This document shows positions 11,357 to 35,916 of a DNA stretch of 64,000 bases, piece after piece. Every line of letters begins with the position of its first letter. The first letter of the stretch is position 1. Source of the DNA: Pleomorphomonas carboxyditropha (GTDB lineage: Bacteria; Pseudomonadota; Alphaproteobacteria; Rhizobiales; Pleomorphomonadaceae); the NCBI RefSeq assembly GCF_002770725.1, contig NZ_NQVN01000002.1, positions 150,622-214,621 of the forward strand, in the 5' to 3' direction. The position numbers were made by a program, and so were the translations under genes. The notes beneath the pieces were generated by a model that was given only the letters and a program-made list of their open reading frames with translations, was not told where the DNA came from and searched no databases.

Positions 11357-11551
11357 GGCGTGTTTCCTTGAGAGCGATTTCAGCGAAAGAATATCCGGCC
11401 GAAATGCCAGCCTGTTGGGTGGCTACTCGTCGACGATATTGTCCTCGGCGCCGGATTGTACTCATCTCGAATAGCGGCGTGTCGTATGAGAGATCATCGG
11501 CAATATAGCCGACCAAGCCCGGCCGCCAAGCCGGGGCCGCCGGTGCGTGCC

Positions 11552-12922: not shown

Positions 12923-13325
12923 TCGTACTCCTCCACTCGTGCTGCTTCTCCTCAGAGACAGCAAGACCAACGCAGATTTCGTATCGAAACCCACGTTTCC
13001 TCCAGATACAGGGGGACTAAATCCGCGCAATCAAAATTCCGCAGACAACCTCACGTCATTTTCTGTAATACCGAGCGTTTGACCGAAGGATCGACCCCAA
13101 TGATCCTCTCGAAAGCTGTCGATGAACGCTCGAAGTTTATTGGTCCTTATCGGTACCAATAACATGAACTCGAATGCCGTCAAGCCGAAACCAACTTGAA
13201 CCGGCAGGACGAGTCGGAGCGGAGATCGCATGTCCTCGACGGGCGGCTTTGGGCGCGCCAGGCTTGCGGCACTGCCATTCAGGGGGTAGCGATGCTCTCG
13301 GTCATTCGCGGAACCGGAGCACCGA
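12923..13325. other. Intergenic region between the ceramidase-like gene and the TetR gene
   Basis: About 400 bases lie between divergent genes. Apart from the inverted repeat at 13137-13162 I see no conserved element. The part next to 12923 holds the GGAGG ribosome site of the ceramidase-like gene and presumably its promoter. Confidence 0.5.
13137..13162. promoter_or_regulatory. Inverted repeat, candidate TetR operator
   Basis: TTATTGGT at 13137-13144 and ACCAATAA at 13155-13162 form a perfect 8-bp inverted repeat with 10 bases between. The intervening CCTTATCGGT also contains a partial direct copy of the left arm. It lies 164 bases before the TetR start, between divergent genes, a usual position for an autoregulatory site that could also control the ceramidase-like gene. 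Confidence 0.5.
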
Positions 13326-15671: not shown

Positions 15672-15802
15672 AACTTCCGCAAATCTGTTTGCCTTCTATT
15701 TGCAAATGAGTATTATTGTCAAGTTTGCAGTTGCGCCTCGGATTGGCTGTTTGATGCCCAACCCGTTGTCCGGCAGCCTTCCAAGCCTAAGAGTATATAA
15801 TT

Positions 15803-17757: not shown

Positions 17758-18554
17758 TCCGCGCCGACCACCTCTCCTACGCTATCGGCGGCCGCTCGCT
17801 GGTCAGCGACATCGACCTCGGTTGCACCGCGGGCAGCGTCACGGTGGTGATCGGCCCCAACGGGGCGGGAAAATCCACCTTGCTGCGCCTTGTCGCCGGC
17901 GAGCTTCGGCCGAGCGGCGGCACCGTGCGCTACGGGGACACGGCCATTGCCGGCCTTTCCGCCGCCGAGCTCGCCACCCGACGCGCCGTGGTGCCACAGG
18001 CGGTGCATCTCGCCTTTTCCTTCACCCTTTCCGAGGTCACGCGCATGGGCTGCGGCCACCGCCGCAACGGCGAGATAGCCGCGCGTGACGCGCTAGCCCG
18101 TGTCGGCCTCGACGACCTGGCCGACCGGCAGTTCCACACGCTGTCCGGCGGCGAGCAGCAGCGCGCCCACGTGGCACGCGCCCTGGTGCAGCTATGGCAG
18201 GCGGGCCGTCCGCCCACCGAGCAGGCATTGCTGCTCGACGAGCCGACCGCCTCGCTCGACCTTCGCCATCAGATCCGCACGCTGGAGCTGGCGCGTGCCT
18301 TCGCCGCCGAGGGGGGTACGGTGCTGGCCGTGCTGCACGACCTCAATCTCGCGGCGGAATTCGCCGACCATGTGGTCCTCATGCTTGGTGGATGCATTGT
18401 GCAGCAGGGCCCACCTGCGGCGGTGATCGCCGACGAGACGGTTAGCGGCGTCTACGAAGTTGTCGGGACGATCAACCGGCTGCCGGCACGCGGCGTGCCT
18501 TACTTCCTGCCGCAATCGCGATCCGATGCTCGCAATCCGACCGGCTCTGCTTGA
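17754..18554 (+). CDS. hmuV: Heme ABC transporter ATP-binding protein
   Basis: A 266-residue ATPase. Walker A is GPNGAGKSTLLR, the signature LSGGEQQRAHVARAL, Walker B LLLDEPTASLD and the switch His is in AVLHDLNLA. The Q-loop region has the heme-importer style VPQAVHLAFSFTLSEVTRMG. ATG 17754 overlaps the permease stop. It powers heme uptake by HmuU. Confidence 0.94.
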   Translation: MIRADHLSYAIGGRSLVSDIDLGCTAGSVTVVIGPNGAGKSTLLRLVAGELRPSGGTVRYGDTAIAGLSAAELATRRAVVPQAVHLAFSFTLSEVTRMGCGHRRNGEIAARDALARVGLDDLADRQFHTLSGGEQQRAHVARALVQLWQAGRPPTEQALLLDEPTASLDLRHQIRTLELARAFAAEGGTVLAVLHDLNLAAEFADHVVLMLGGCIVQQGPPAAVIADETVSGVYEVVGTINRLPARGVPYFLPQSRSDARNPTGSA

Positions 18555-18569
18555 AACGGAATTGAACGC

Positions 18570-18843
18570 ATGGATTTGGACGCCCCCTGCCTGCCGACCG
18601 TCCGACTTACCGATCTGGTGCCACCGGGCACCCCATCGAACATCGTCGGTCGCCTATCTCCATGTCCCCTTCTGCCGGAGCCGCTGCCTGTTCTGCGGCT
18701 TCTGGCGCAATCCCTGGCACAAGGACGTCTCCAAGCCGGTTACCGATCTGCCGATCCGCGAAATCGAGCTCCGGTCCCGTCAGCTGACCCGGCAGGGTTA
18801 CCCAATCGTAATTATCCAAAATCCAATGGCCAAGTTACCATGA
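18570..18843 (+). pseudogene. Remnant of a HutW/ChuW-type radical SAM gene
   Basis: Directly after hmuV, one frame starts MDLDAPCLPTVRLTDLVPP and a second continues with VAYLHVPFCRSRCLFCGFWRN, which carries the CxxxCxxC iron-sulphur motif and the 'HVPFC...CGF' context of HutW/ChuW heme-opening enzymes. The N-terminus and core are therefore in different frames, and the rest of the ~450-residue protein is missing; the frame stops at 18843. A complete HutW lies at 31896-33332. The sequences after the cluster differ (NPWHKDVSKP against NPYDAEETHA), so this is an older gene rather than a recent copy. Confidence 0.75.
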
Positions 18844-21409: not shown

Positions 21410-21934
21410 ATGAAGGAAGGACCGGACCTCCGCTTCTCCACGTATCTGTCCCAACGGCCGGGCCTGATCGAGTATGCCGCCCGCATGCTGGGCTCGCGCG
21501 AGGCTGCCGAGGACATCCTTCAGGAAGCCTATCTCCGCTTCGTCCCCAAGGCATCCGGTAGCCCGCTCCGCCACAAGTCCTACCTGTTCCGCATCGTCCA
21601 CAACCTTGCCGTCGATATGCTGCGGCGCAAGAAGCTCGAACGCCGAAGCAGGATGGAGGACACTCCCCCCTGGGCCGCGCCTCCGCCAATGCCGACGCCG
21701 GAGGAAACAGTTCTCTTTTGCGAAAGCGTAAGGCGAGCCATGGATATCATCGCCGATCTGCCGAAAAGTCAGCGCGTCGCATTGGAGATGCACCGCTTCG
21801 GCGGCTACCCGCCCGAGCAGATCGCCGCCCACCTCGGCGTATCCGTCCCGACCGTATACCGTCTCGTGCAGACGGCCGTGGCCACGCTCACCTTGCGCCT
21901 CAGACAGGATCCCGCCGATCATCGCCCCTCGTGA
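21410..21934 (+). CDS. ECF RNA polymerase sigma factor, FecI/HasI type
   Basis: A 174-residue sigma-70 family protein with only regions 2 and 4. Region 2 is YAARMLGSREAAEDILQEAYLRF to SYLFRIVHNLAVDMLRRKK (residues about 18-78); region 4 is DIIADLPKSQRVALEMHRFGGYPPEQIAAHLGVSVPTVYRLV (about 112-155). The stop overlaps a GTG start of the FecR-like gene. With the FecR protein and a receptor carrying a signalling domain this is a cell-surface signalling trio, like HasI-HasS-HasR of Serratia: heme or holo-hemophore binding outside would turn on the receptor genes. Confidence 0.88.
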   Translation: MKEGPDLRFSTYLSQRPGLIEYAARMLGSREAAEDILQEAYLRFVPKASGSPLRHKSYLFRIVHNLAVDMLRRKKLERRSRMEDTPPWAAPPPMPTPEETVLFCESVRRAMDIIADLPKSQRVALEMHRFGGYPPEQIAAHLGVSVPTVYRLVQTAVATLTLRLRQDPADHRPS

Positions 21935-23064
21935 ACGAAAATCACATTGTAAAGAATCAAACGAAGGAAAATGGTATCGTGGTCGCGGCATTCGCCTTCT
22001 TCATGAACAAGCAGACTGGCGCGGCCGCCGGCAAACAGCGCACATTGGGCACCGAAGTGAAAGCGGAACAGGAACTTCTCGAGGAGGCGGCGGGCTGGAT
22101 TCTGAAATTGGAGACGGCGCCCGATGGTTCGCCGTTGTTCAGGGAATTCGATGCCTGGCTGATGGCTTCGCGGGGAAACCGGACCGCATGGGAAAGCGTC
22201 AACCAAACCTGGCAGCTGCTCGGCGCAATCAGGCCGGCCGACAATCAGAAGGTCTGGGGCGACGTTCCGTCCCTCCCCAAACCGGGCCTGGCGCCACTCG
22301 TTGAGACCATGACGCGCGCCCGTTCGGCGCGCGCTTCGTTTGTTCGTTCCGCCGGCCTGGCCATCGCCGCGGTCTCCGTCGCCTGGTTGATCTGGATCGT
22401 TGCCCCGATCGCCCTGATTGCCTGGCAGGCGGATCATCGGACTGGCGCCGGCGAGACCGAGATCGTCGCCATGGCGGACGGCTCGACGGTCGAACTGGGT
22501 GGCCGCAGCGCCATCAGCACCAAGGTCGATTCCGCGCAGCGCAAGGTGACGCTGCTGGCCGGAGAGGCTTTCTTCGATGTTTTCCGCGACGCCGAGCGTC
22601 CGTTCGTCGTCGATGCGCAGGGCATCGAGCTCGAGGTGCTAGGCACCGCCTTCGACGTTCAGGTGTCGTCGTCGACCACCAATATAGCGTTGCTGCGCGG
22701 CTCGGTCGTCATCCGCTCTGGAGCGCAGGACGGCGTCGTCACGGTCCTCAAGCCCGGCGAAAGGTTTGCCGTCGATCATGACACCGGCGCCGTCAGCGTC
22801 ACCGCCGTATCGTTGGATGAGATCGGCGCATGGCGCGACGGCAAGGTTTTCCTCGCCGATGCCACCGTCGCTTCCGCCGTCGAACTGATCCAGCGCTATC
22901 ATCCGGCATGGATTTCCGTGCCGGACGGAAGCCTCGCCGCCCGCAAGGTCAGCGGGCTGTTCGACCTTCGCCATCCCGATCAGGCCTTGTCGGCTCTCGT
23001 CGGACCGTTCGGCGGCAAGGTCAGATCGGTCTCGCCGCTGGTGCGCATCGTCACCCGCCTTTGA
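21931..23064 (+). CDS. FecR/HasS-type anti-sigma factor
   Basis: A membrane protein of up to 377 residues. The N-terminal cytoplasmic part (EAAGWILKLETAPDGSPLFREFDAWLMASRGNRTAWE) is the sigma-binding domain, then one membrane segment (AGLAIAAVSVAWLIWIVAPIALIAW) and a periplasmic FecR domain with ADGSTVELGGRSAI and VDAQGIELEVLGTAFDVQV. The C-terminal STN-like part (VELIQRYHPAWISVPDG) would meet the receptor. I used GTG 21931, which overlaps the sigma stop; ATG 22003 would give 353 residues and is a real alternative. It holds the sigma factor until the HasR-like receptor signals. Confidence 0.85.
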   Translation: MNENHIVKNQTKENGIVVAAFAFFMNKQTGAAAGKQRTLGTEVKAEQELLEEAAGWILKLETAPDGSPLFREFDAWLMASRGNRTAWESVNQTWQLLGAIRPADNQKVWGDVPSLPKPGLAPLVETMTRARSARASFVRSAGLAIAAVSVAWLIWIVAPIALIAWQADHRTGAGETEIVAMADGSTVELGGRSAISTKVDSAQRKVTLLAGEAFFDVFRDAERPFVVDAQGIELEVLGTAFDVQVSSSTTNIALLRGSVVIRSGAQDGVVTVLKPGERFAVDHDTGAVSVTAVSLDEIGAWRDGKVFLADATVASAVELIQRYHPAWISVPDGSLAARKVSGLFDLRHPDQALSALVGPFGGKVRSVSPLVRIVTRL

Positions 23065-23302: not shown

Positions 23303-25984
23303 ATGCGTATCGGGGGTACACGGAATGGAGTTTCAACGACCAAGGTAACGGGGGTGGCCGCCACGTCCCGGCTGCTCGTCGGCGTTGCGGGTTGCGCGCT
23401 TGCCGCCGCTTCAGTCGTCATCCCGCGAAGTGCCTTGTCCCAGGCGATCGAAAACACCTCGACGGTTGCCGCGACGCGCCAGTTCAGCATCCCGGCGCAA
23501 CCGCTCACCGATGCCCTTGGCCAGTTCGGCCGGCAGTCGGGCCTTCAGGTCGCCTTTCCGGCCGAAGTCGCGCAAGGATTGAGCGCGAATGCCGTCGTCG
23601 GCACATTCACGCCGCGCGACGCTCTGGCGCGGCTTCTTCAGGGAACCGGCGTTTCCTGGCGCATCACCGCGCAAGGCGCCGTCATCGTCGGCGGCCAAAC
23701 AACGGACGCCTCGGACGACGGGGCCGTGACCGCCGACGGCTCGCTATTGCTCGACACGATCACGGTCACCGGCCAGAGCGAGCGCGCCGCCTCTTCCGGC
23801 TCCGGCTATCAGGGTACGCCCGATTGGGTCTACGAAACGCCGTCCTCGGTTGGCGTGATCTCACGCGAGGCGATTCAGAGCGCGCCGTCCCGCAACGCCC
23901 GCGACCTGCTCGACAACGTCGCCGGTGTCTATGCAAGCCGCGCCGAGGCACAGAAGCCTGGTATTTCGGTGAATATCCGCGGCCTTCAGGATAACGATCG
24001 CGTCGGAATGATGATCGACGGCGCGCGTCAGAGTTTCCAGCGCAACGGGCATGGCGCCACCCAACAAACCTATGTCGACACGGCTTTCGTCCGCGCCATC
24101 GAGGTTGAAAAGAGCGGGACCTCGGGCGCCGGAAGCTTGGGTACGCTGGGTGGATCGGTGAACTTCCGCACGATCGTCGCCGACGATCTGATCCAGCCGG
24201 ATCGCAAATGGGGCGTCGAGCTCAACGGAACGACGGGCACCAACAACTATCATTTCGACGGTTCGTTAGCGGCGGCAATTCGCCTGTCCGACAGTTTTTC
24301 GGTTCTTGGCGGCGTCAGCCACAAGAACATCGGCGCCTACGAGGTCGGAAAGAACGGAGAATTGCGCGCCCAGACAACGACGGCGACCGGCGACACCTTT
24401 CTGTTCTCGGGCCAGGAGGTGCTGTCCACCATTCTCAAGGCAGAGGCCGACATCACGGACGACGCCAAGCTGTCGCTCAGCTGGGTCCGTAACGAATCCG
24501 ATTTCAGCACCGGCAATTACTCCACCTTTCTAGGCGACACGATGCTGCTGGAAACAAAGCAGAATGTCGTCAACGACACGTTTGCGACATCACTCGACTG
24601 GAACCCGCACAGCAATCTGGTCGATCTGAAGGCCCGGCTTTACTACAACCAGACGGATCACGAGGACAACGCTTACGTCATCGATGGCGTGGGTCGCAAT
24701 TACAAGATGGAAACACCGGGCGGCAGCATCGAGAATACCAGCCGCGTCGACACGTCCTTCGGGCTTCTCTCACTCAATTATGGCGCCGAGGCGTTCCGGG
24801 ACGACGGCAAGTCGAACAATCCCGCCGTCATCATCGACGGCATGGACCAGACGGACTACTACAACGGCGGCAACCCCGCAGGTAAACGCGACGTTGCCGG
24901 CGGTTTCTTCAACGCCAAGCTCGAGCACGACGACTGGCTGACCGTACAGGGCGGCTTTCGCTACGACTGGTACAGGGCAAGCGGCAGCACGACGATCTAT
25001 GGCAATGAGACACGGGATATTATCCAGACAATTGAACATCCCGAAATACCCTGCCGTCAGCCGTTCCCAACACGGCCAGATATTTGCATCGGCGGTCAGC
25101 CGGCGTGGACGGAATATGTTTATGGTGATCCCTATTATCCCCGCTACGGCGTAAACATTAATCGCTCGGACGGAGCATTCCTTCCGACCTTCACCGTTGC
25201 AGTAAAGCCCTATGACTGGCTTCAGCCCTTCGTCAAATATTCGGAGAGCTTCCGCCCGCCGACCGTGATGGAATCCTTCCTGAATAGCGGCCACCAGGGC
25301 GTGTCCAACAGCTATGCTCCGAACCCATATCTTGAGCCCGAAAGTGCGGAAACCTGGGAACTCGGCGTCAATATTTCAAAGGATGCTCTGTTCAAGGCGG
25401 ACGATAGCTTGCGCCTCAAGGTTGTTGGCTTTTATCGTGAAGTCGAGGATTATATCGCGCTGGGGCGCACGTATAACGAAGACGCCGCCCGGTATTATAC
25501 GTCGCCCGTCAATCTGAGCGGAGCGACGCGCATGAAGGGCGTCGAGGTCGAGGCCAATTACGACGCTCGAGCGTGGTATCTCGGCGGAACGCTCACCTAT
25601 AACGAGGCCGACTACCCGCGATGGTACGGTTCCGGCGCCGGGCTCGGATATCTGGGCGCCGAGTCGTCGGTAATCTTCGTCCAGCCCGAAATTCGGGTGG
25701 CGCTCGACGGTGGCGTGCGGCTTTTCGATGAGAAGCTGACGCTCGGGGCCCGCATGACTTATGTCGGCAAGACGGAGCCGACGATCGGTTCGTTGCAGAA
25801 CAACTACAAGCTTGACGACTACACGCTTTTCGATCTCTACGGGTCCTACGCTATCAACGAAAATGCGAAGTTGCGGGTCTCCGTCACCAACCTGACGGAC
25901 AAGGCCTACGTCTCGGCACTCGGTGCGGACTACTACGCCATGCCTGGACGCACGATCACGGCATCGCTCAACCTTAAATTCTAG
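23303..25984 (+). CDS. HasR-like TonB-dependent hemophore/heme receptor with signalling domain
   Basis: An 893-residue outer-membrane receptor. Signal peptide to about residue 48; STN signalling domain (FSIPAQPLTDALGQFGRQSGLQVAFP to LLQGTGVSWRITAQGAVIV, about 55-135); TonB box DTITVTG; plug with VSVIS-like start and GISVNIRGLQDNDRVGMMIDG; 22-strand barrel ending LNLKF. His250 lies in the plug apex (QRNGHGATQQ) and His664 in a loop between FRPP and NPYLEPE, the usual heme-receptor site. Their 414-residue spacing equals that of His189 and His603, the heme ligands of Serratia HasR. It follows the sigma/anti-sigma pair and precedes two hemophore genes. The stop codon lies inside a stem-loop repeat. 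Confidence 0.88.
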   Translation: MRIGGTRNGVSTTKVTGVAATSRLLVGVAGCALAAASVVIPRSALSQAIENTSTVAATRQFSIPAQPLTDALGQFGRQSGLQVAFPAEVAQGLSANAVVGTFTPRDALARLLQGTGVSWRITAQGAVIVGGQTTDASDDGAVTADGSLLLDTITVTGQSERAASSGSGYQGTPDWVYETPSSVGVISREAIQSAPSRNARDLLDNVAGVYASRAEAQKPGISVNIRGLQDNDRVGMMIDGARQSFQRNGHGATQQTYVDTAFVRAIEVEKSGTSGAGSLGTLGGSVNFRTIVADDLIQPDRKWGVELNGTTGTNNYHFDGSLAAAIRLSDSFSVLGGVSHKNIGAYEVGKNGELRAQTTTATGDTFLFSGQEVLSTILKAEADITDDAKLSLSWVRNESDFSTGNYSTFLGDTMLLETKQNVVNDTFATSLDWNPHSNLVDLKARLYYNQTDHEDNAYVIDGVGRNYKMETPGGSIENTSRVDTSFGLLSLNYGAEAFRDDGKSNNPAVIIDGMDQTDYYNGGNPAGKRDVAGGFFNAKLEHDDWLTVQGGFRYDWYRASGSTTIYGNETRDIIQTIEHPEIPCRQPFPTRPDICIGGQPAWTEYVYGDPYYPRYGVNINRSDGAFLPTFTVAVKPYDWLQPFVKYSESFRPPTVMESFLNSGHQGVSNSYAPNPYLEPESAETWELGVNISKDALFKADDSLRLKVVGFYREVEDYIALGRTYNEDAARYYTSPVNLSGATRMKGVEVEANYDARAWYLGGTLTYNEADYPRWYGSGAGLGYLGAESSVIFVQPEIRVALDGGVRLFDEKLTLGARMTYVGKTEPTIGSLQNNYKLDDYTLFDLYGSYAINENAKLRVSVTNLTDKAYVSALGADYYAMPGRTITASLNLKF

Positions 25985-26164: not shown

Positions 26165-26950
26165 ATGGCAGTCGTGCTTCAGTTGACCGCGGCAAGCAGC
26201 AATCTGCGCGCCTATCTCGACTCCTATGACGCCAACTTCACCTACAATGGCAATGGCTGGTTCAACGGCATCGCCGGCGGAGAAGATCAGTGGGTTGCCG
26301 GCACGTCCACCTACATTGGAACGCCAACCAATGGCGAACTCTCGGCGATCATGGACATCGTGGACTATTCGTACACGCCGGGCGCCTTCAACGGGCAGGT
26401 GACCCAGCTCGCACTCGGCGTCAACTTGGTCCAGGACTACAACAACGACATCTTCACCCAGACCAATCAGCTCATTATCACGCCCGAGTCCGGCTACCTG
26501 CCGATCACCAGCACGTTCAACGAGGCGATCTATGCGTTGTCTCACGGCGGCGCAGTGGATGGAGGGACCTACACCTTCACGATCCCCGGCCAGGCTCCCG
26601 TCACCCAGGAGTTCGCCGGTCTGACCGACTACTTTGCCGAGCAAGGCACAATCCAGATCGGCAATGTCGGTCTTAATGACGTCCTCGTTGGCTTTGGCGG
26701 ACAGGACACCTTCGTCTTCCAGGAAGGCTCCGGTACGGAAGACACGGTCAATAACTTCGACGTGGCGCAAGACCTTCTCGACGTTTCCGCATGGGGCGCT
26801 ACGAGCCTGACCGATCTGAATATCGCGGTCGATGCTGGTGATACGATCATTTACAGCGCCGACTTCAGCGACGGTATCGTTGTCACAGGCGTCACCGACC
26901 TCACCGTGTCGAATTTCGTCTTCGCCGACTCGCTCGCCCTCGCTGCCTAA
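26165..26950 (+). CDS. HasA-like secreted hemophore with RTX-like C-terminal domain, paralogue 1
   Basis: A 261-residue acidic protein without signal peptide, preceded by AAAGGAGA. Residues about 1-165 resemble HasA: a short N-terminal strand and helix (AYLDSYDANFTYN), then VDYSYTPGAFNGQVTQLALG, which lines up with the LTYTL...LYGQLDSLSFG segment of Serratia HasA holding heme-ligand Tyr75. From about 170 it changes to a serralysin/RTX-type tail (DVLVGFGGQDTFVFQEG and NNFDVAQDLLDVSAWGA) ending in a hydrophobic LALAA, as in type I secretion substrates. The only His is in ALSHGG, away from the ligand loops. It would be exported by the HasD/HasE pair downstream, scavenge heme outside and feed the HasR-like receptor. 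Confidence 0.78.
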   Translation: MAVVLQLTAASSNLRAYLDSYDANFTYNGNGWFNGIAGGEDQWVAGTSTYIGTPTNGELSAIMDIVDYSYTPGAFNGQVTQLALGVNLVQDYNNDIFTQTNQLIITPESGYLPITSTFNEAIYALSHGGAVDGGTYTFTIPGQAPVTQEFAGLTDYFAEQGTIQIGNVGLNDVLVGFGGQDTFVFQEGSGTEDTVNNFDVAQDLLDVSAWGATSLTDLNIAVDAGDTIIYSADFSDGIVVTGVTDLTVSNFVFADSLALAA

Positions 26951-26970
26951 GAGCCGCACGGCATGACGCA

Positions 26971-26997
26971 ACGCCGCCGCTCCGCACGCGGCGGCGT
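26971..26997 (+). other. Strong stem-loop between the two hemophore genes
   Basis: ACGCCGCCGC (26971-26980) and GCGGCGGCGT (26988-26997) form a perfect 10-bp stem with a 7-base loop, 20 bases after the first hemophore stop. No T run follows. Such structures after a highly expressed first gene often protect its 3' end or lower downstream expression; the Serratia hasA message also ends at a stem-loop. Confidence 0.5.
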
Positions 26998-27108
26998 ATC
27001 TGACTTCAAACCCGAAGCCACTCACTCATCCGCATTGGTCGGAGCCGCCGCTCGCAACCGGGCTGGCGATATTCCGGCAAGCGCCGACGAAATAGTAAGG
27101 AGATGAAC

Positions 27109-27840
27109 ATGTCAGTGATTTTGAACTACACGACGGCAAGCAGCGATCTTCCTTCTTTCCTGGCGGACTGGCAGGACAATTTCGGCTATCGCGGCGACGG
27201 TTCGTTCAACCAGGTCCGCAACACCACCGATCAATGGTTCGCCGGCACGCCGGGAAACGCCACCGCGTCTTCGGTGATCGTCAATGGCGACGACTACAGC
27301 CTGACGCCGGGGACCGTTGACGGAACGGTCGACACGCTCGCACTCGGCAGCAACCTGACCTACTCGGGTTCCGCCGACACCTGGTCGCAGACGGTGGGCC
27401 TGTCGGTGGACCTCGATGGCGCACCGCTGACCGATGCCTGGGACGCCGCTATCACCGACCTGTCACAGAATGGCAGCCTCGACGGCCTTTATGCCTATTT
27501 CGCCGAGCAGGGCACCGTACAGAACGGCACTGTCGGCGATGACGTTCTGCTGAGCTTCGGCGGCGACGACGTCTTCTATGGAGGCGACGGTGCCGATACC
27601 TTTCTCTTCACCGGCAATGACGGCGCCGATACCATCAAGGACTTCGACGCCGATGCGGACGTTATCGATGTGAGTGCCTGGGGCGCCGATGCCTTCACCT
27701 CGCTTTCGGTGAGCTGGATCAACCAGGGTGTTCAGGACGTCTACAACGCCGTCATTACCTACAACGGTAACGGCAACACCATCACCGTCGAGAATATCGC
27801 CTTCGGCTCCCTCGACGCTGGCAACGTCCTCGTCGCCTGA
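27109..27840 (+). CDS. HasA-like secreted hemophore with RTX-like C-terminal domain, paralogue 2
   Basis: A 243-residue paralogue of the preceding protein. ATG 27109 is chosen over 27103 because TAAGGAG then has proper spacing and the start (MSVILNYTTASSDL) aligns with paralogue 1. HasA-like part: FLADWQDNFGYRGDG, GDDYSLTPGTVDGTVDTLALGSNL with the Tyr75 counterpart, and LYAYFAEQGT. The tail has a true RTX nonapeptide pattern (GGDDVFYGGDGADTFLF) and KDFDADADVIDVSAWGA, ending NVLVA. The whole protein contains no His and no Cys, so heme, if bound, must rely on Tyr. It is cotranscribed with paralogue 1. Confidence 0.78.
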   Translation: MSVILNYTTASSDLPSFLADWQDNFGYRGDGSFNQVRNTTDQWFAGTPGNATASSVIVNGDDYSLTPGTVDGTVDTLALGSNLTYSGSADTWSQTVGLSVDLDGAPLTDAWDAAITDLSQNGSLDGLYAYFAEQGTVQNGTVGDDVLLSFGGDDVFYGGDGADTFLFTGNDGADTIKDFDADADVIDVSAWGADAFTSLSVSWINQGVQDVYNAVITYNGNGNTITVENIAFGSLDAGNVLVA

Positions 27841-27848
27841 CGCGAAGG

Positions 27849-27873
27849 GTGCGCATCCGTCCTGGGTGCGCAC
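27849..27873 (+). other. Stem-loop after the second hemophore gene
   Basis: GTGCGCA (27849-27855) pairs perfectly with TGCGCAC (27867-27873) just after the stop of hemophore 2, followed by GTCTTCGTCTCC. A weak terminator or processing site that would separate abundant hemophore mRNA from the export genes. Confidence 0.4.
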
Positions 27874-27924
27874 GTCTTCGTCTCCGTTCAGCAGAATTTA
27901 CCACTCCAGGAGGTTCCGGCGCTC

Positions 27925-29781
27925 ATGCAACCAATCCGGCCCAGGCCTCGCTCTGAACCGTTCAAAGCCCTCGGCTTGACTCGGACTGTTGCCGCTATCG
28001 CGCTCGTCAGCGGCGTCGTCAACCTCCTGGCGCTGACCTCGCCCCTGTTCATGCTTCAGGTCTACGACCGGGTGCTGTCGAGCCGCAGCGTGCCGACGCT
28101 GGTGGGGCTTGCCGTGCTGGCGGCCGGTCTCTACGCCTTCCAGTCCGCGCTCGACATCCTGCGCGCCCGCGTGCTGCTGCGCGTCGGCGAGCGCTTCGAC
28201 CACGAGTTCTCCGGCCGTGTCCATGACGCCGTCGTTCGCCTGCCGCTGCATGCGCGGCTTCCCGGCGACGGCCTCCAGCCGTTGCGCGATCTCGACAACG
28301 TGCGCGGCTTCCTGTCCGGCCAGGGGCCGACCGCGCTCTTCGACCTGCCGTGGATGCCGCTCTATCTCGGCATCTGCTTCGCCTTCCACGTCTGGCTCGG
28401 CACGACGGCGCTGGTCGGCGCCATCGTGCTGGTGTCGCTGACGCTTCTCACCAATTTTCTTTCGCAAGGGCCGATCCGCGCCACGATCGAGCACAACATG
28501 GTCCGCAACGCGCTGATGGAGGCCGGCCGCCGCAATGCCGAAGTCGTGCGCGCCCTCGGTCTCGGACCCCGCATCGCCGCCCGCTGGCGGGAGGCCAACG
28601 TTGCCTATCTCGCCGCCAACCGCAAGGCGGGCGATGTCGCCAGCGGCCTTGGCGGCATTTCGAAGGCGCTGCGCATCACGCTCCAGTCGGCCATCCTCGG
28701 CGTCGGCGCCTGGCTCGTCATCCGGCAGGAGGCGAGCGCCGGCGTCATGATCGCCGCCTCCATCATGATGGGGCGCGCGCTGGCGCCGGTCGATCTCGCC
28801 ATCGCCAGCTGGAGGCCATATCTCATGGCGCGCCAGAGCTGGGCGCGCCTTCAGGATCTCCTCGGGAAGCTGCCGGAAGCCGGGCCGGTCCTGGCGCTGC
28901 CCAGGCCGGCGCGCGACCTGTGCGCCGAAGCCCTTGCCGTCGCGCCGCCCGGCGACAGGAAGCCCACGGTCATGGGGATCGGCTTTGCCATCCAGGCCGG
29001 CAGCGCTCTCGGCATCATCGGCCCGTCCGGCTCGGGCAAGTCCACGCTCGCCCGCGCCCTGATCGGCGCATGGGAGCCGGCCGCCGGCAAGATCCGCATC
29101 GACGGCGCGAGCTTCGATCAGTGGGATCGCGAGGCGCTCGGCCGGCATATCGGCTATCTTCCCCAGGGCGTCGAGCTGTTCGACGGCACGATCGCCGAAA
29201 ACATCGCCCGCTTCGAGCCCGAAGCCGATGCAGGGAAGATCGTCGCCGCCGCGATGGCGGCCGGCGCCCATGAACTCATCCTGCGCTTCGAAGCCGGTTA
29301 CCAGACCCGCATCGGCGAGGCCGGCTCGGCGCTTTCGGCCGGCCAGCGCCAGCGCATCGGCCTTGCCCGCGCGCTCTACGACGACCCCTTCCTCGTCGTC
29401 CTGGATGAGCCGAACGCCAATCTCGACAGCGACGGCGAAACGGGCGTCGTCAGGGCAATCACCGCGGTCCGCGAACGCAAAGGCATTGCCATCGTCGTCG
29501 CGCACCGGCCGAGCGCCATCAATGCGGTGGACCATGTGCTGGTGATGGAGGCCGGGCGCATGAAGGCGTTCGGCCCTCGCGACGAGGTTCTGTCCAAGGT
29601 TCTCAAGCCGCCGCCGGACCGCCATCCGGCAACGAACGGCGCCGCGCCTTCCGGCCCGCCGGCCTATCGCCCCACCACCCGCACCTTGCACCCGTTCCAC
29701 GTCGCCGCCGCTCCGGCAAGCGGCTTCGATACGGCGGCTGAGAAGACCCCGGAAGCGGAGGACGCCGATGTCCGCCACTGA
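27925..29781 (+). CDS. Type I secretion ABC transporter, HasD/PrtD type
   Basis: A 618-residue half-transporter. Residues about 20-300 are the membrane domain (INLLALTSPLFMLQVYDRVLSSRSVPTL is the PrtD/HasD hallmark, no C39 peptidase domain). The ATPase domain has Walker A GPSGSGKSTL, signature LSAGQRQRIGLARAL, and VVLDEPNANLD as Walker B. The C-terminus continues for about 60 Pro-rich residues. It overlaps the membrane-fusion gene by 14 bases. Position right after the hemophores says that these are its cargo. The outer-membrane TolC partner (HasF) is not in the window. Confidence 0.92.
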   Translation: MQPIRPRPRSEPFKALGLTRTVAAIALVSGVVNLLALTSPLFMLQVYDRVLSSRSVPTLVGLAVLAAGLYAFQSALDILRARVLLRVGERFDHEFSGRVHDAVVRLPLHARLPGDGLQPLRDLDNVRGFLSGQGPTALFDLPWMPLYLGICFAFHVWLGTTALVGAIVLVSLTLLTNFLSQGPIRATIEHNMVRNALMEAGRRNAEVVRALGLGPRIAARWREANVAYLAANRKAGDVASGLGGISKALRITLQSAILGVGAWLVIRQEASAGVMIAASIMMGRALAPVDLAIASWRPYLMARQSWARLQDLLGKLPEAGPVLALPRPARDLCAEALAVAPPGDRKPTVMGIGFAIQAGSALGIIGPSGSGKSTLARALIGAWEPAAGKIRIDGASFDQWDREALGRHIGYLPQGVELFDGTIAENIARFEPEADAGKIVAAAMAAGAHELILRFEAGYQTRIGEAGSALSAGQRQRIGLARALYDDPFLVVLDEPNANLDSDGETGVVRAITAVRERKGIAIVVAHRPSAINAVDHVLVMEAGRMKAFGPRDEVLSKVLKPPPDRHPATNGAAPSGPPAYRPTTRTLHPFHVAAAPASGFDTAAEKTPEAEDADVRH

Positions 29782-31078
29782 CGCCGTCCTCGTCGCTCGC
29801 TCGATCCGTGGGCATCTCGCCGCCGGTCTCGTCATCGGCGGCCTGCTCGTCGGCGGCGTCGGCGCATGGGCGGCCACCGCCACTCTTGCCGGCGCCATCG
29901 TCAGCCACGGCACCCTGGTCGTCGATTCCTACGTGAAGAAGGTCCAGCACCCGACCGGCGGCATCGTCGGCGAGATCCTTGTCGGCGACGGCGACCGGGT
30001 TGCCGCCGGCGACGTTCTCGTGCGGCTCGACGCGACGCAGACGCGCGCGCAACTCGCCATCGTCGCCAAACGGCTCGACGAGCTTGCCGCCCGCCTGGCC
30101 CGCCTGGAGGCCGAGCGCGACGACAAGCCGGAAATCGAGTTTCCCGCATGGCTGCTCGCGCGCACGGATGACGCCGATGTCGCCGCCGCCTTGCACAGCG
30201 ACCGCCGCCTCTTCGAATTCCGCCGTGAATCCCGCGACGGCCGCAAGGCGCAGCTTCGCGAGCGCATCGCCCAATACGAGCACGAGATCGACGGCCTGAA
30301 GGCGCAGGAGCTCGCCTACCAGCGCGGTCTTGCCGTCCTCGAAAGGGAGATCGCGGCCTTGCGCCCGCTGTTCGAGAAGGGCGTCGTCAACGCTCAGCGC
30401 CTCAACGCCCTCGAAACGCAGGCCGCCACCTTCGATGGCGAGCGGGGCGAAAAGATCGCGTTTCAGGCGCAGGCCGCCGGCCGCATTTCCGAGACGAAAT
30501 TGCAGATCCTCTCCATCGACCAGGATCTGAAGACGGAGGTCGGCCAGGAACTGCGCGAAATTCAGGCCCAGACCGGCGAATATGTCGAGCGCAAGGTGGC
30601 GGCCGAGGACCAATTGAAGCGCATCGACATCCTCGCGCCTCAGGACGGGGTCGTGCACCAGCTCGCGGTCCACACCGTCGGCGGCGTCATATCCCCGGCC
30701 GACACCATCATGCAGATCGTGCCCCAGAGCGACGCCCTGGCGCTGGAGGCGCGGATTTATCCGCAGGACATCGATCAGGTGGTGCTTGGCCAGACTGCCG
30801 TCCTGCGCATGTCGGCCTTCAACCAGCGCACCACCCCGGAGCTCAACGGCCGCGTCAGCCGCATCGCCGCCGACCTGACCGAGGACGAGCGCACCGGCCT
30901 GTCCTGGTACCTCGTCCGGATTTCCATCCCGCCCGAGGAACTGGCCCGCCTCGGCGACCTCGCGCTGGTCCCGGGCATGCCCTGCGAGGCGCTGATCCGG
31001 ACCGGCGAGCGCACGGCGCTCTCCTACCTGGTCAAGCCCCTCGCCGACCAGCTCAATCGCGCGTTCCGGGAGGAATAG
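29768..31078 (+). CDS. Type I secretion membrane-fusion protein, HasE/PrtE type
   Basis: A 436-residue HlyD-family protein: short cytoplasmic N-terminus, one membrane helix (LAAGLVIGGLLVGGVGAWAATATL), a lipoyl-like strand (VQHPTGGIVGEILVGDGDRVAAGDVLVRLD), long coiled coil about 95-270, the second lipoyl half (RIDILAPQDGVVHQLAVHTVGGVI) and a beta-barrel C-terminus. It links the HasD-like ATPase to TolC in the periplasm. Its start overlaps the end of the ABC gene, so the two are made together. Confidence 0.92.
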   Translation: MSATDAVLVARSIRGHLAAGLVIGGLLVGGVGAWAATATLAGAIVSHGTLVVDSYVKKVQHPTGGIVGEILVGDGDRVAAGDVLVRLDATQTRAQLAIVAKRLDELAARLARLEAERDDKPEIEFPAWLLARTDDADVAAALHSDRRLFEFRRESRDGRKAQLRERIAQYEHEIDGLKAQELAYQRGLAVLEREIAALRPLFEKGVVNAQRLNALETQAATFDGERGEKIAFQAQAAGRISETKLQILSIDQDLKTEVGQELREIQAQTGEYVERKVAAEDQLKRIDILAPQDGVVHQLAVHTVGGVISPADTIMQIVPQSDALALEARIYPQDIDQVVLGQTAVLRMSAFNQRTTPELNGRVSRIAADLTEDERTGLSWYLVRISIPPEELARLGDLALVPGMPCEALIRTGERTALSYLVKPLADQLNRAFREE

Positions 31079-31224: not shown

Positions 31225-31899
31225 ATGGATAGAAATACCTTGGCGAAAGCACCCGCCGGGCATGTGCGGAGCCATACGCAGCTTTTGCATGCAGCCACAC
31301 ATCCGACCCATGATTTGCTCGACAAGGCGATCATGGGGCATCGACCGTTTGCCGACCGGGAGCGTTACGGTCTGTTCCTGCGAACGCAGCACGGCTTCCA
31401 TCGCGACATCGACGCGCTCTACGACGATGCCGGCCTCGCCGGGTTGCTGCCCGACCTCCGGGGGCGTCGGCGGCTCGGCCTGATCGAGCGGGATCTTGCC
31501 GATCTCGGCGTCGAGCCGCCGGCGCCGGATGGCGATCCCGCATTCCTTCCCGGCGCGGCCGTCGATCTGCCCACCGCATTGGGCTGGCTCTATGTGGCCG
31601 AAGGCTCCAATCTCGGCGCCGCCTTCCTGCTGAAGGAAGCCGCCAAACTGGGCTTTTCCGAAAGTTTCGGCGCAAGGCATCTTGCCGGGGCGCCGGAAGG
31701 CCGCGGTCTTCATTGGCGGACGTTCACGACGGCCTTCGACGCCATTCCGCTCGACGGGGACGGAGAGGTGCGCCTGATCGATGGGGCCGTAAGCGGATTT
31801 GCCCGTGTTCTCGGCTTTGTGGACCGGCAGTTCCGGGTGCCGGGGCAGGGTCGTCCGTCGGTTTCGCGCGAGGATCAGCGGGGAGAGAAGCATCCATGA
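31225..31899 (+). CDS. Biliverdin-producing heme oxygenase, paralogue 1
   Basis: A 224-residue bacterial heme oxygenase (BphO/HemO type). The proximal-helix region is LLHAATHPTHDLLDKAIMG, with the His of the second 'TH' as the best axial ligand, and the distal region GWLYVAEGSNLGAAFLLKEA. It would open imported heme to biliverdin, CO and iron in the cytoplasm. It follows the type I export genes by 146 bases and its stop overlaps the HutW start (ATGA). The N-terminus is 15-20 residues longer than in paralogue 2. Confidence 0.85.
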   Translation: MDRNTLAKAPAGHVRSHTQLLHAATHPTHDLLDKAIMGHRPFADRERYGLFLRTQHGFHRDIDALYDDAGLAGLLPDLRGRRRLGLIERDLADLGVEPPAPDGDPAFLPGAAVDLPTALGWLYVAEGSNLGAAFLLKEAAKLGFSESFGARHLAGAPEGRGLHWRTFTTAFDAIPLDGDGEVRLIDGAVSGFARVLGFVDRQFRVPGQGRPSVSREDQRGEKHP

Positions 31900-33332
31900 G
31901 GCCCCAGCAGCCGTCCGCGCGGCCGGCCGGCCATCCCACCGCCGCCGGCGGCATGAGCCCGTCGGCCGGCCCGGCCGACCTGTCGGCGTTTCTGCCCGTT
32001 GCCGGCGGCGACGCGCTGACCGGCGCCTTCGCCCGCCGCGCGCCGATGATGCCCTGGCAGACCGACCGCCGCATAGCCGAGGAGGAGTTCCCCCGGCACG
32101 TCGCGGCCGTCTTCGGCGCGGCGAGCCCGGCGCGGCGGGTGGCCTACGTCCATGTCCCGTTCTGCCATACGCACTGCCTGTTCTGCGGCTTCTACCAGAA
32201 TCCGTATGACGCCGAGGAGACGCACGCCTTCGCCGGCCGACTGGTACGCGAGATCGAAGCGGCCGCCGCGCGGCCGCTCCACCGCGACGGCCGGCCGATC
32301 GAGGCGGTGTTCCTGGGCGGCGGCACGCCGACGGCGCTGGCGGCCGAGGACATCGCGGCGGTGGTTGGGGCGCTCAGGCGCTGTCTGCCGCTGGCCGAGG
32401 ACTGCGAGATCACCCTCGAGGGCCGCACCCACGACTTCACGCCCGACAAGGTGGAGGCGGCGCTCGGCGCCGGCGTGACGCGCTTTTCCATCGGCGTGCA
32501 GAGCTTCGATACCCGCGTGCGGCGTCGGCTCGGCCGCAAGTTCGACCGTGCCGGCCTGCTGGCGCTGCTCGAGGAACTGGTGCAGGCCGGCGGAGCGTCC
32601 TTGGTCATCGACCTGATCTACGGCCTGCCGGGCCAGGACGCGACGGTGTGGCGCGACGACGTCGAGACGGCGGCCGGGCTTGGCCTCGACGGCCTCGACA
32701 TCTACGCGCTGAGCATCTTTCCGGGCGTACCGCTGTCCCGGGCGATCACGGCGGGCAAGACGCTGCCGGTGCCGAGCCTGGCCACGCAGGCCGAGAGCTA
32801 CGCCCATGCGGTCGGCCGTTTTGCCGAGCTCGGCTGGAAGAAGCTGTCGCAGGCGCATATGGCCCGCACCGGCCGCGAGCGCAGCCTCTACAACCAACTG
32901 GTCAAGACCGACGCCGCCTGTCTCGCCTTCGGCCCCGGCGCCGGCGGCTCGGCGCACGGCCGCTCCTGGCGCACGGTGGCCGACCTCGCCGAGTGGTCGC
33001 GCCGGATCGAGGTGGGCGCGCCGACGGTGGCAATGATGGCCGAGGGCACGCCGCGGCGCGCCGTCCACGCGCGTATCCGCTCGCAGCTCGAGGACGGGGT
33101 GTTCGACGGCGCGAGCGTCGAGGCGCTGGTTCCGGGCTTTCTCGCCGCCGCCGAGCCGCTTTTGTCGGCCTGGACGGCGGCGGGGCTGGGCGCGCGCCAA
33201 GGCAGTTCGTTCCGCACCACGGTGGCCGGCGATTTCTGGATGACGACCCTCGCCGCCGGCCTGATCCAGGCGAGCGAGACATTGGGATCGACGAGGGAGC
33301 GCGCCGGCATCCACGCCGGGAGAGCGCCATAG
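31896..33332 (+). CDS. hutW: HutW/ChuW-type radical SAM heme-degrading enzyme
   Basis: A 478-residue HemN-like radical SAM protein. The [4Fe-4S] motif is Cys90, Cys94, Cys97 (PFCHTHCLFCGFYQNP), followed by VFLGGGTPTAL and TRFSIGVQSFDTRVRRRLGR, all typical of HemN relatives; 'HTHCLFCGFYQN' and ALSIFPGVPLSRAI match the ChuW/HutW branch, which opens heme without oxygen by a radical methyl transfer. ATG 31896 overlaps the stop of heme oxygenase 1. Together with two heme oxygenases this gives both aerobic and anaerobic ways to take iron from heme. Confidence 0.86.
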   Translation: MRPQQPSARPAGHPTAAGGMSPSAGPADLSAFLPVAGGDALTGAFARRAPMMPWQTDRRIAEEEFPRHVAAVFGAASPARRVAYVHVPFCHTHCLFCGFYQNPYDAEETHAFAGRLVREIEAAAARPLHRDGRPIEAVFLGGGTPTALAAEDIAAVVGALRRCLPLAEDCEITLEGRTHDFTPDKVEAALGAGVTRFSIGVQSFDTRVRRRLGRKFDRAGLLALLEELVQAGGASLVIDLIYGLPGQDATVWRDDVETAAGLGLDGLDIYALSIFPGVPLSRAITAGKTLPVPSLATQAESYAHAVGRFAELGWKKLSQAHMARTGRERSLYNQLVKTDAACLAFGPGAGGSAHGRSWRTVADLAEWSRRIEVGAPTVAMMAEGTPRRAVHARIRSQLEDGVFDGASVEALVPGFLAAAEPLLSAWTAAGLGARQGSSFRTTVAGDFWMTTLAAGLIQASETLGSTRERAGIHAGRAP

Positions 33333-33412
33333 CCGCCGCGCCCGTCCGGGGATCGCTTCCGCGGCGCTGCCGGGGAGGGCGCCCGGTAAAGCCGCAGACA
33401 GGAGAGAAGCGA

Positions 33413-34018
33413 ATGGACACGAAGACGACGACCGCTCCCGACGGGAGGACGAGCCGCGTCGCCCGCCTGAAGGCGGCGACGCAGGAGGCCCACGAGCGCC
33501 TCGACGAGCGCTTTCTGGCGCTCGATCCGTTCGGCGATCTCGAGCGCTATCGACGGTTTCTGGCCGTGCAGCACGCCTTCCACCAGGAGATCGACCGCCT
33601 TCAGCGCAGCCCGGCGCTGGCCGGCCTGATCCCGGATATGGCGGCGCGCCGGCGCCTCGACCTGATCCGGCAGGACATGCTGGATATTGGCGTCGCCCTT
33701 CCGGAGACCGGCTCCGGCGAGAAGCACTCCGTCGACGTGGCGGGCGCCTTCGGCTGGCTGTATGTGGCCGAAGGCGGCAATCTCAGCGCGGCGACCTTCA
33801 TGAGGTCGGCGGCCGGGCTGGGGCTGACCGGGGACGCCGGCGCGCGCCACCTTGCGGCGGCATCGCAATCGCGCGGCGCGCACTGGCAGACTTTCCTGGC
33901 CGCGCTCGAGGAGCTCGGCCTCGATGAAGCGGCCGAACGGCGGCTGGTCGACGGCGGCATCGAGGCGTTCGATCGTTACCACATGCTGCTGGCGACCCAT
34001 CTGGTCCCCCCGCGGTGA
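33413..34018 (+). CDS. Biliverdin-producing heme oxygenase, paralogue 2
   Basis: A 201-residue heme oxygenase. Proximal His in RLKAATQEAHERLDERFLAL, distal segment FGWLYVAEGGNLSAATFMRSA. ATG 33413 has AGGAGAGAAG upstream. It shares with paralogue 1 the unusual GWLYVAEG distal helix, but elsewhere the two are clearly diverged, so the split is not recent. It ends overlapping the DUF454 gene. Confidence 0.86.
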   Translation: MDTKTTTAPDGRTSRVARLKAATQEAHERLDERFLALDPFGDLERYRRFLAVQHAFHQEIDRLQRSPALAGLIPDMAARRRLDLIRQDMLDIGVALPETGSGEKHSVDVAGAFGWLYVAEGGNLSAATFMRSAAGLGLTGDAGARHLAAASQSRGAHWQTFLAALEELGLDEAAERRLVDGGIEAFDRYHMLLATHLVPPR

Positions 34019-34482
34019 TGGAGCCCGGCATGAGCGCGTCCGCTGACGGGAGGGATCGGCCACGGCTGGGAATTGGCCTGGGGTTGCGCCTGGGTCTGCG
34101 CGGGCTTGGGCTGCTGTTCCTCGCCATCGGCGTGGTCGGCGCCTTTCTGCCGATGCTGCCGGCCACGCCCTTCCTGCTCCTGGCTCTCGGCTGCTTCGCA
34201 CGATCGTCGCCGCAACTGGAAGCGCGGCTGCTCGCCCATCCGCGCTTCGGTCCTTCCCTCCTGGCGTGGCGGACGCATCGCGCGATGTCGCGCCGGGCCA
34301 AGATCGGCGCCTGCCTGGGCAAGGCGGTGGGTTTTGCCTGCTTTGTTTTCTTCGCGCATCCGCCCGTCTGGCTTGCGCTGGCGGTGCTGGGGCTGATGAC
34401 GGCGGCGGCGGTATGGATCGTGCGGCGTCCGGAGCCCGAAGCGCAGGGGATAACCGGCGGGGAACGGGAGATCGGAGAATGA
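34018..34482 (+). CDS. DUF454/YbaN-family inner-membrane protein
   Basis: A 154-residue protein with hydrophobic segments at [32 protein letters not shown] and [20 protein letters not shown]. The [24 protein letters not shown] start and the [32 protein letters not shown] loop define DUF454. The function is unknown, but such genes recur in heme loci of alphaproteobacteria. ATG 34018 shares bases with the preceding stop (TGATG); GTG 34015 is possible. The end overlaps exbB. Confidence 0.82.
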
Positions 34483-35435
34483 GGATGCGTCGGATATCGG
34501 CTTCGGCGGCGGCCATCAGGCGCTCCTTCCTGGTGATGGCGATGATGGTGCTCGCGGCACCGGCCTTTGCACAACAGGGGGCGGCCGCGACGGAAGCGCC
34601 GGCCGCGCCTGTCGTTGCGCCGGCGCCGTCCGCCGATGCGCCCGTACCGTCCCTGTTGGAGAATCCGGCGGCAACGATTTCGCATCTGCTGGCCGCGCCG
34701 GAGCGCACCGCCGACCTGCCGCATGACCTGTCGCCCTGGGGCATGTTCCTGGCCGCCGACTGGGTGGTGAAGGCCGTCATGATCGGCCTCGTGCTCGGTT
34801 CGCTGGCGGTGTGGACGGTGTGGCTGGCCAAATCGATCGAGATCGCCTGTGCCAGGACGCGCGCCAAGCGGGCTGTCGCCGCGATCGCCGGGGCCGCCTG
34901 CCTCTCCGATGCCGATGCGCGGCTGGCCGGGCGCGGCGGACCGGCTGCCTTCATGGTGCGATCGGCCGCCGACGAGATGCGCCGCTCCGCCATGGCGCTC
35001 GACCATGTCGGCGGCGACGGCGTCAAGGAGCGCGTCGGCGCGCGGCTTGCCCGCATCGAGGCACAGGCCGGCCGCCGGCTCGCGCGCGGCACCGGGCTCC
35101 TGGCCACCATCGGTTCCACCGCACCCTTCGTCGGCCTGTTCGGCACCGTCTGGGGCATCATGAACGCCTTCATCGGCATCTCGGAAGCGCACACCACCAA
35201 CCTTGCCGTGGTGGCGCCCGGCATTGCCGAGGCGCTGCTGGCCACCGCCATAGGCCTGGTGGCCGCCATCCCCGCGGTCATCGTCTACAACGTCTTCGCC
35301 CGCGCCGTCGCCGGCTACGCGCAGTTGCTGGCCGATGCCGCCTCGGGCGTGGAACAGTTGGTCAGCCTCGACATCGACCTGCGCAGGGTGCCGGCCGAAG
35401 ACCGGTCCGCTTCCACACTTGCGGCGGCGGAGTAG
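34479..35435 (+). CDS. exbB: TonB-system energiser ExbB
   Basis: A 318-residue ExbB of the long alphaproteobacterial type: signal peptide ([16 protein letters not shown]), a Pro/Ala-rich periplasmic segment of about 60 residues, then three membrane helices. The MotA/ExbB core is [32 protein letters not shown] and [27 protein letters not shown] 34479 overlaps the previous stop; ATG 34485 is an alternative. With ExbD and TonB it draws on the proton gradient to drive the HasR-like receptor. Confidence 0.92.
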
Positions 35436-35439
35436 GGCC

Positions 35440-35916
35440 ATGGCCGGCGGCATAAGAAGGAATGCGGGTTCGCTGCCCGAGGAGAACAGCGACATCAACA
35501 TCGTCCCCTTCATCGACATCATGCTGGTGCTGCTCATCATCTTCATGGTGGCGGCGCCCTTGGCGACCGTGGATGTCGACGTCGACCTGCCGGCTTCGAC
35601 GGCCAAGCCGGCCGAGCGGCCCGACAAGCCGCTCTACCTGACGCTCGGGAGCGATCTCGCTCTGCATCTCGGCGACGCTCCGGTGGCGCGCGAGGGGCTG
35701 GCGGCGGCGCTCGACGCCTTCACCGGCGGCGACAGGGAGACGCGCGTGTTCCTGCGGGCCGACCAGGCGGTCTCCTATCGCGATCTCATGGAGACGATGA
35801 ACCTGCTGCGCGACTCCGGCTACGTGAGGATCGCCCTGATCGGCCTCGAGGCCGCGCCGGCCGCCTCCGTTCCCGACGACGGGGCCGGCCGTCAGCCCGG
35901 AACCCCGCTCCCGTGA
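35440..35916 (+). CDS. exbD: TonB-system energiser ExbD
   Basis: A 158-residue ExbD. One membrane helix carries the essential Asp: NIVPFIDIMLVLLIIFMVAAP. The periplasmic part follows (VDVDLPASTAKPAERPDKPLYLTL). ATG 35440 is four bases after the exbB stop; the end overlaps the tonB start (GTGA). Confidence 0.93.
   Translation: MAGGIRRNAGSLPEENSDINIVPFIDIMLVLLIIFMVAAPLATVDVDVDLPASTAKPAERPDKPLYLTLGSDLALHLGDAPVAREGLAAALDAFTGGDRETRVFLRADQAVSYRDLMETMNLLRDSGYVRIALIGLEAAPAASVPDDGAGRQPGTPLP

Follow-up and report, generated by a model that had tools for sequence, protein, structure and literature searches.

A probable pair of HasA-type hemophores with RTX/serralysin-type C-terminal modules in a has locus of Pleomorphomonas carboxyditropha

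Two tandem genes of Pleomorphomonas carboxyditropha, hasA1 and hasA2, very probably encode a pair of HasA-type hemophores that carry an RTX/serralysin secretion module and are served by a type I secretion system (T1SS) and a HasR receptor of their own. They lie in a 64,000-nucleotide stretch of contig NZ_NQVN01000002.1 (positions 150,622 to 214,621 of the forward strand; hereafter the window, whose internal numbering is used throughout), the hasA1 open reading frame (ORF) at 26165-26950 (261 amino acids) and the hasA2 ORF at 27103-27840 (245 amino acids), both on the plus strand. The true start of hasA2 is probably its third codon, at 27109, because AAGGAG immediately precedes 27103 and the methionine of that codon is where the alignments of homologues begin. 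In HasA1, a HasA-family N-terminal domain (N-domain; residues 1-162, 26165-26650) gives way near residue 163 to a degenerate RTX/serralysin-type tail (residues 163-261 and the stop codon, 26651-26950); in HasA2 the switch falls near residue 139, between an N-domain encoded by 27103-27516 (or from 27109) and a tail encoded, with the stop codon, by 27517-27840. A first-pass annotation of the same DNA had proposed this arrangement of a HasA-like hemophore with an RTX/serralysin tail in two tandem copies, and profile searches, gene context and relatives all agree with it. As it had remarked, neither protein ends like a classical HasA of about 190 residues, both being longer and closing with an RTX-type tail, and the motifs it quoted are present, namely FGGQDTFVF in HasA1, GGDDVFYGGDGADTFLF in HasA2, and a block of the type FD....DLLDVSAWGA that reads FDVAQDLLDVSAWGA in HasA1 and FDADADVIDVSAWGA in HasA2; the switch that it had placed at about residue 165 in both proteins holds for HasA1 and not for HasA2.

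There is good support for a HasA-like N-domain, an RTX-like tail and a has locus. A 16-row profile made from N-domains of the window, of two related loci (L004 and L005) and of genomes of the order was run against 177,635 PDB sequences and gave 26 hits at E up to 10, of which 24 are HasA (E 5.4e-12 to 1.6e-7). Twin-pair members were absent from a profile of eight relatives that recovered 24 PDB HasA sequences (E 1.3e-13 to 4.1e-8), and likewise from a ten-relative profile that found, among 1126 ORFs, HasA1 at E 4.9e-8 (residues 1-106) and HasA2 at E 2.6e-7 (residues 13-107), the first unrelated ORF appearing at E 1.6. In that search 31 ORFs lay above the inclusion threshold, 30 of which were read as HasA-like, with L066_1_653 left unread. 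Profile-profile comparison of the twin-pair group with the relatives returned a probability of 97.1. The AlphaFold model of HasA2, obtained from six aligned proteins (mean predicted local distance difference test score, pLDDT, 79.9; predicted template modeling score 0.82), shows an alpha/beta domain to residue 136 followed by short strands spaced 8-11 residues apart, resembling a beta-roll. Classical HasA carries its secretion signal in the C-terminal region. Because the match of the N-domain profile to HasAp spans residues 1-150 and stops there, out of 184, the tail replaces the HasA C-terminal region rather than trailing a whole HasA.

The tail itself resembles the end of secreted RTX enzymes. 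At E up to 0.1, a profile of 12 tails retrieved 41 PDB sequences; alkaline metalloproteases and serralysins head the list (E 5.6e-11), and the alignments fall close to their C-termini (residues 364-457 of 480 in the best match). Taken singly and at E<1e-5, the HasA2 tail hits 23 ORFs other than HasA and the HasA1 tail hits one, against a best E of 0.023 (HasA2 tail) and 0.096 (HasA1 tail) over 50 shuffles of each; most RTX loci in this ORF set had been fetched for their likeness to the HasA2 tail, so that only the contrast with the shuffled tails counts. With regard to the repeats, the two strict nonapeptides (GGxGxDxUx) of the HasA2 tail were reached by 0 of 2000 shuffles and its two loose motifs by 9%, whereas the count in the HasA1 tail is at chance level, its single loose motif being reached by 23% of 2000 shuffles. 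The RTX identity of the HasA1 tail rests on homology, and the motif count alone was dropped as a proof of it.

The pair is not confined to the window. HasA1 and HasA2 occur in the same order in four loci, those of the window, of a Tardiphaga metagenome-assembled genome (MAG; L004), of a Hyphomicrobiales MAG (L005) and of genome G236 (L035). Over the N-domain, HasA1 orthologues are 60-89% and HasA2 orthologues 62-78% identical, and paralogues 40-51%. In the N-domain tree the four HasA1 group together (92/96), as do the four HasA2 (94/97), with both supports just below the values that earn the program's star; the two groups had been set beforehand by gene order and N-domain. The tail tree, in which the HasA2 tail is a long branch and whose three tail groups were named after the tails had been inspected, rejects both a HasA1 clade (approximately unbiased test, p 0.0149) and a HasA2 clade (p 0.00266). 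For example, the HasA1 tail of the window is 65% identical to that of L005, and these two are only 30-34% identical to those of L004 and L035, which are themselves 51-55% identical to the tail of L036, a single-copy relative. Since the N-domain tree keeps the paralogue clades and the tail tree rejects them, the hemophore domain and the tail behave as exchangeable modules.

The heme site was compared in an alignment of 28 proteins, from which multi-domain ones were left out and in which L057-L059 are near-identical. The position of HasA Tyr75 is a tyrosine in 27 of the 28, including HasA1 of the window (Tyr70, in DYSY), and the sole exception is HasA2 of the window, which has Leu67 there and no histidine anywhere, a loss that had escaped the first-pass annotation. 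A hhalign alignment had suggested Tyr65 of HasA2 as the equivalent of Tyr75; Leu67 is preferred because its column is otherwise invariably tyrosine and the column two residues earlier is variable (Tyr, Phe, Met, Leu, Ile and others). The His83 position is a histidine, as far as tabulated, in L040-L045, L057-L067 and L078, and its equivalent is missing from L036-L039, L077 and the twin-pair proteins. In the 16-row profile about 11 residues are lost from the stretch around HasAp His32, and no twin-pair protein has a histidine there. HasAyp is described as ligating heme by a lone tyrosine, His32 not being a ligand (PMC9627568). In four single-copy relatives (L036, L037, L039 and L040) a single histidine falls at residues 30-37, within the stretch of the classical His32 loop, and is a candidate equivalent only.

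Several results weigh against taking the pair as RTX-tailed hemophores. Neither HasA1 nor HasA2 matches the Pfam HasA model PF06438 at E up to 10, and single-sequence searches of Pfam, NCBIfam and PDB with either protein retrieved no HasA; the search of HasA and serralysin hidden Markov models advised by the first-pass annotation was in this respect split, the Pfam HasA model remaining unmatched while the N-domain profile finds HasA and the tail profile finds serralysins. Used alone as a profile, the eight twin-pair N-domains recover a single PDB HasA, at E 0.0021. The ten-relative profile misses remoter members of the subfamily, with four proteins at E 0.19-1.3 and the L039 protein unlisted. 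Structure modeling covered HasA2; the other four AlphaFold models score 61-73, and blocks after residue ~190 average 49-70, which is low confidence. The tails are degenerate as RTX, with no strict nonapeptide in HasA1 and two in HasA2, and the Pfam RTX repeat model gives HasA2 17.8 bits against a cut-off of 23 and does not match HasA1. Finally, none of the eight twin-pair proteins has an equivalent of His32 or His83, and HasA2 of the window also lacks that of Tyr75, so that heme binding is not assured.

On balance, we favor a scheme in which HasA1 and HasA2, as members of the HasA family, would bind heme outside the cell and carry a short RTX/serralysin-type module in place of the original C-terminal region. 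Their export would run through the PrtD/HasD-type ATP-binding cassette (ABC) exporter and the HlyD/HasE-type adaptor encoded just downstream; once outside, they would capture heme, bind to the HasR-like receptor whose gene lies immediately upstream and pass the heme on. Uptake would be powered by TonB-ExbBD, an HmuTUV-type transporter would carry the heme to the cytoplasm, and heme oxygenases and HutW would open it; the signaling domain of HasR, together with the adjacent extracytoplasmic function (ECF) sigma factor and FecR pair, should render the operon heme-inducible. The RTX tail would act as a module for T1SS recognition and folding, and in long-tailed relatives it would keep the hemophore unfolded inside the cell and fold with calcium outside, taking over the job that SecB performs for Serratia HasA. 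A dependence of the window pair on calcium, to judge from its repeats, is weakly supported. HasA1 keeps the equivalent of the heme-ligating Tyr75, and HasA2 probably binds or releases heme differently. A wider proposal is that the HasA of Hyphomicrobiales form a separate secretion class, in which an exchangeable RTX module would replace both the HasA signal and the need for SecB and extracellular calcium would switch on folding and heme capture, with HasA1 carrying heme via a lone tyrosine and the histidine-free, Tyr75-less HasA2 serving as a fast-exchange or heme-free partner at HasR; taken as a whole, we regard it as unlikely.

Among the alternatives, the strongest is that the tail is simply an alternative type I secretion signal that serves neither calcium use nor folding, the proteins being ordinary HasA with a different address label, to which we give only slightly less than an even chance. 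The few or absent strict repeats of the window tails and the exchange of tails of different types fit this idea, as does a comparison of 26 proteins, in which 12 of the 13 with a neighboring T1SS gene have 0-2 strict repeats and 12 of the 13 lacking such a neighbor have 2-10; the counts are uncorrected for kinship, contig ends truncate some flanks (L085 among them), and the comparison excludes L040 and L077, which lie on short contigs, as well as L063, L065 and the multi-domain L047, L072 and L074-L076. The same counts would also fit tails that are longer wherever export has to rely on a shared exporter, the proteins not being independent. A bare signal would, however, seem to have little need of the 10 strict repeats that some relatives reach, and the tail profile spans both the RTX repeats of serralysins and the region after them. 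It is improbable that the proteins stay on the cell surface, with the RTX part as an anchor or adhesin-like module and heme relayed at the surface: S-layer and adhesion proteins do occur among the weak matches of the tail profile (E 0.006 to 0.08), but its best matches are secreted proteases, HasA1 and HasA2 are small, and tail matches often run to the very end of larger RTX proteins, the site of a T1SS signal. Least credible is a chance or convergent likeness, with the heme receptor simply neighbored by a small RTX protein of other descent; the failure of single-sequence searches to find HasA is what speaks for it, and it sits badly with the HasA hits of profiles built with or without the twin pair and with the has-type operon of relatives, so that we give it almost no weight.

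As to the division of labor, HasA1 might be the sole heme carrier, with HasA2 recruited to work beside it without heme, perhaps as a ligand signaling via HasR to FecR and the sigma factor or as an aid in stripping other proteins of their heme. The leucine at the Tyr75 position of the window HasA2 and its want of histidine point this way, the paralogues are distinct in that eight N-domain positions are fixed differently between HasA1 and HasA2 (four sequences each), and HxuA offers the precedent of a hemophore-class protein with no detectable heme affinity (PMC11442138). Yet the loss of Tyr75 is so far private to this genome, the HasA2 of the three other twin loci having kept it. In addition, Kumar et al. 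2014, going by the title of their paper, reportedly found that HasAp acquires hemin almost as before when Tyr75 or His83 is replaced. We consider a heme-free HasA2 somewhat unlikely. By another title, Tyr-His coordination is reportedly critical for heme release to HasR.

Beyond the twin loci, the 16-row profile matched, at E<=0.001, 21 of 397 sampled genomes of the order, at 29 places and in 12 of 141 genera. It matched two of 372 genomes in the class sample and four of 339 in the phylum sample; each includes the genome of the window, and two more of the four also belong to the order. The system is patchy, since none of 13 other sampled genomes of the genus and one of six of the family matched. 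As a query in its own right, PF06438 matched three of 101 sampled order genomes and none of 385 class genomes, the control genomes going unmatched in both searches, and the A1 profile was used instead; whole HasA2 was rejected as an order-wide query, 94 of 397 genomes being matched, most via the tail only, and a contig scan with HasA2 found two relatives. All 29 frames of the order run on into a Gly/Asp-rich tail, several of them being longer with more repeats. A Pfam scan of 25 proteins (alignment A6, E<=0.01) found the RTX repeat in 17, HasA in five and Peptidase_M10_C in three, and at least one strict nonapeptide is present in 18 of 28 tabulated proteins, multi-domain ones left out; one from outside the class (L078), lying in a has locus, has none and ends in ELELAA. 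Of 29 fetched loci, some of them cut by contig ends, 25 have a HasR homologue (E<=1e-6), 16 a heme oxygenase and eight an exporter at 200 bits or more. Eight plasmid records also carry relatives (six Shinella, one Rhizobium, one Neorhizobium), annotated once as HasA, once as hypothetical and once as hemolysin, with five lacking a gene in the PLSDB table, which is incomplete; the first of these is WP_241949299.1 of Shinella sp. H4-D48 p1, a 'heme acquisition protein HasA'. The architecture, which the first-pass annotation did not know of, is regular in the order and has in this one relative been annotated as HasA already; in agreement with that remark, no description of a HasA with an RTX tail was found in the open-access literature covered, each text in part (PMC8277102, PMC12502724, PMC9627568, PMC3034196, PMC6891781, PMC3792355, PMC11442138), subscription papers and architecture databases being outside that scope.

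Some relatives depart from the two-part plan. Large RTX proteins with HasA-like domains are encoded in L047, L074, L075 and L076, with two such domains per chain in L047, L075 and L076, and no HasR homologue lies in the fetched surroundings of L074, L075 and L076 (L095, L084 and L096). In L036 (genome G367, 6952-13583), hasR, exporter and adaptor genes are split over several frames, whereas each occupies one frame in a second locus of this genome, L037; the split reflects either decay or sequencing error. A 435-amino-acid frame in L072 (281-1588, genome G326, contig C8) runs from a HasR-like plug region into HasA-RTX, either as a deletion fusion or as an assembly fault. On the Neorhizobium galegae plasmid pNgVX (L098, 481-6855), an IS630-family transposase gene lies between the regulator genes and the receptor; the annotation splits the receptor into two genes and labels the HasA-RTX gene hemolysin. 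Outside the class, L093 (genome G925) is a has locus with sigma, FecR, HasR, exporter, adaptor and heme oxygenase homologues and a tail-less HasA of 228 amino acids.

Compared with known systems, the pair resembles HasA of Serratia, Pseudomonas and Yersinia (PF06438) in its N-domain, in the Tyr75 position kept in HasA1 and, like HasAyp, in doing without a His32 ligand, and its genes have the neighbors of a classical has operon (hasR, exporter, adaptor, TonB, sigma and anti-sigma). The likeness to the Serratia and Pseudomonas systems extends to HasI/HasS signaling (PMC11442138). Unlike classical HasA, it has an RTX module at the C-terminus, two tandem hemophores, a shortened His32 stretch and no His83, and HasA2 lacks Tyr75. 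The tail aligns with the last repeats and following region of serralysin/alkaline protease, RTX lipase and mannuronan epimerase modules (PF00353, PF08548), and the exporter is of the PrtD type as in serralysin systems, but the passenger is a hemophore and not an enzyme, and the repeats in the window are few and degenerate. Other Hyphomicrobiales HasA-RTX proteins (L044, L057, L042 and the Shinella protein) share the two-part architecture beside a HasR homologue and, unlike the window pair, keep the equivalents of both Tyr75 and His83; they have five, six, three and one strict repeats, respectively, against zero and two in the window. In two reviews, HasA is said to have no RTX domain (PMC8277102) and to be maybe the sole T1SS substrate without one (PMC6891781), and to be SecB-dependent and held unfolded by SecB, whereas RTX substrates are chaperone-independent (PMC6891781, PMC8277102). 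Because these reviews set HasA apart in this way, the natural HasA-RTX fusions bear on that contrast and, with 0 to 10 strict repeats, would provide a ready series for the role of RTX in secretion and folding, all built on a single type of small, easily assayed passenger. Without His32 and His83, and with a HasA2 that lacks Tyr75, the twin pair would likewise be a natural test of minimal hemophore ligation. With these loci, HasA systems also come to include soil bacteria and plant-associated ones, whose annotation is uneven, the window itself holding no Pfam HasA match.

In the window, the genes around the pair form a has island at 15.7-36.8 kb, whose genes and hairpins are on the plus strand, and no tRNA that could mark an island end lies in the window. 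Upstream of hasA1 are genes for a periplasmic binding protein of the heme/B12 type (HmuT-like, 15803-16681) and, in a frame listed as 15700-17757, a FecCD-type permease (HmuU-like, about 16768-17730), both by family match, and for the heme ABC transporter ATPase HmuV (17739-18554, NF010068 above cut-off). These are followed by an ECF sigma factor (HasI-like, 21410-21934, family match), a FecR-type anti-sigma factor (HasS-like, listed as 21718-23064 with its true start further in, the domains beginning at residue 122) and the HasR-like TonB-dependent heme receptor with an STN signaling domain (23303-25984, TIGR01785, E 7.6e-156). Promoter and terminator scans near hasA1 and hasA2 detected none, including at a G+C-rich hairpin without T-run in the gap between the two genes (26971-26997; z -1.9 for the folded gap, suggestive only); a strong hairpin, also without T-run, lies between hasA2 and the exporter gene (27842-27881, z -2.85). 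As a guess, the hairpins 3' of hasA1 and hasA2 may set the ratio of hemophore to exporter. Downstream lie the PrtD/HasD-type exporter (27925-29781, TIGR01842, E 1.1e-225) and HlyD/HasE-type adaptor (29768-31078, TIGR01843, E 7.9e-120) genes, then those for heme oxygenase 1 (31225-31899, PF01126, E 1.1e-14), a HutW/ChuW-type radical S-adenosylmethionine protein (frame listed as 31713-33332, TIGR04107, E 4.7e-144, match from residue 104) and, in the frame 32648-34018, heme oxygenase 2 (PF01126, E 8.8e-19, residues 272-448, about 33461-33991). Genes for ExbB (34266-35435, family match), ExbD (35335-35916, match from residue 49-52) and a TonB/HasB-like protein (35913-36752, family match) complete the island. 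A short frame at 18460-18843, between the heme ABC transporter and the sigma factor, corresponds to HutW positions 34-93 (TIGR04107, E 1.1e-14) and appears to be a fragment of a second HutW. It is of note that the intact HutW gene, which is of an anaerobic type, is flanked by the two heme oxygenase genes.

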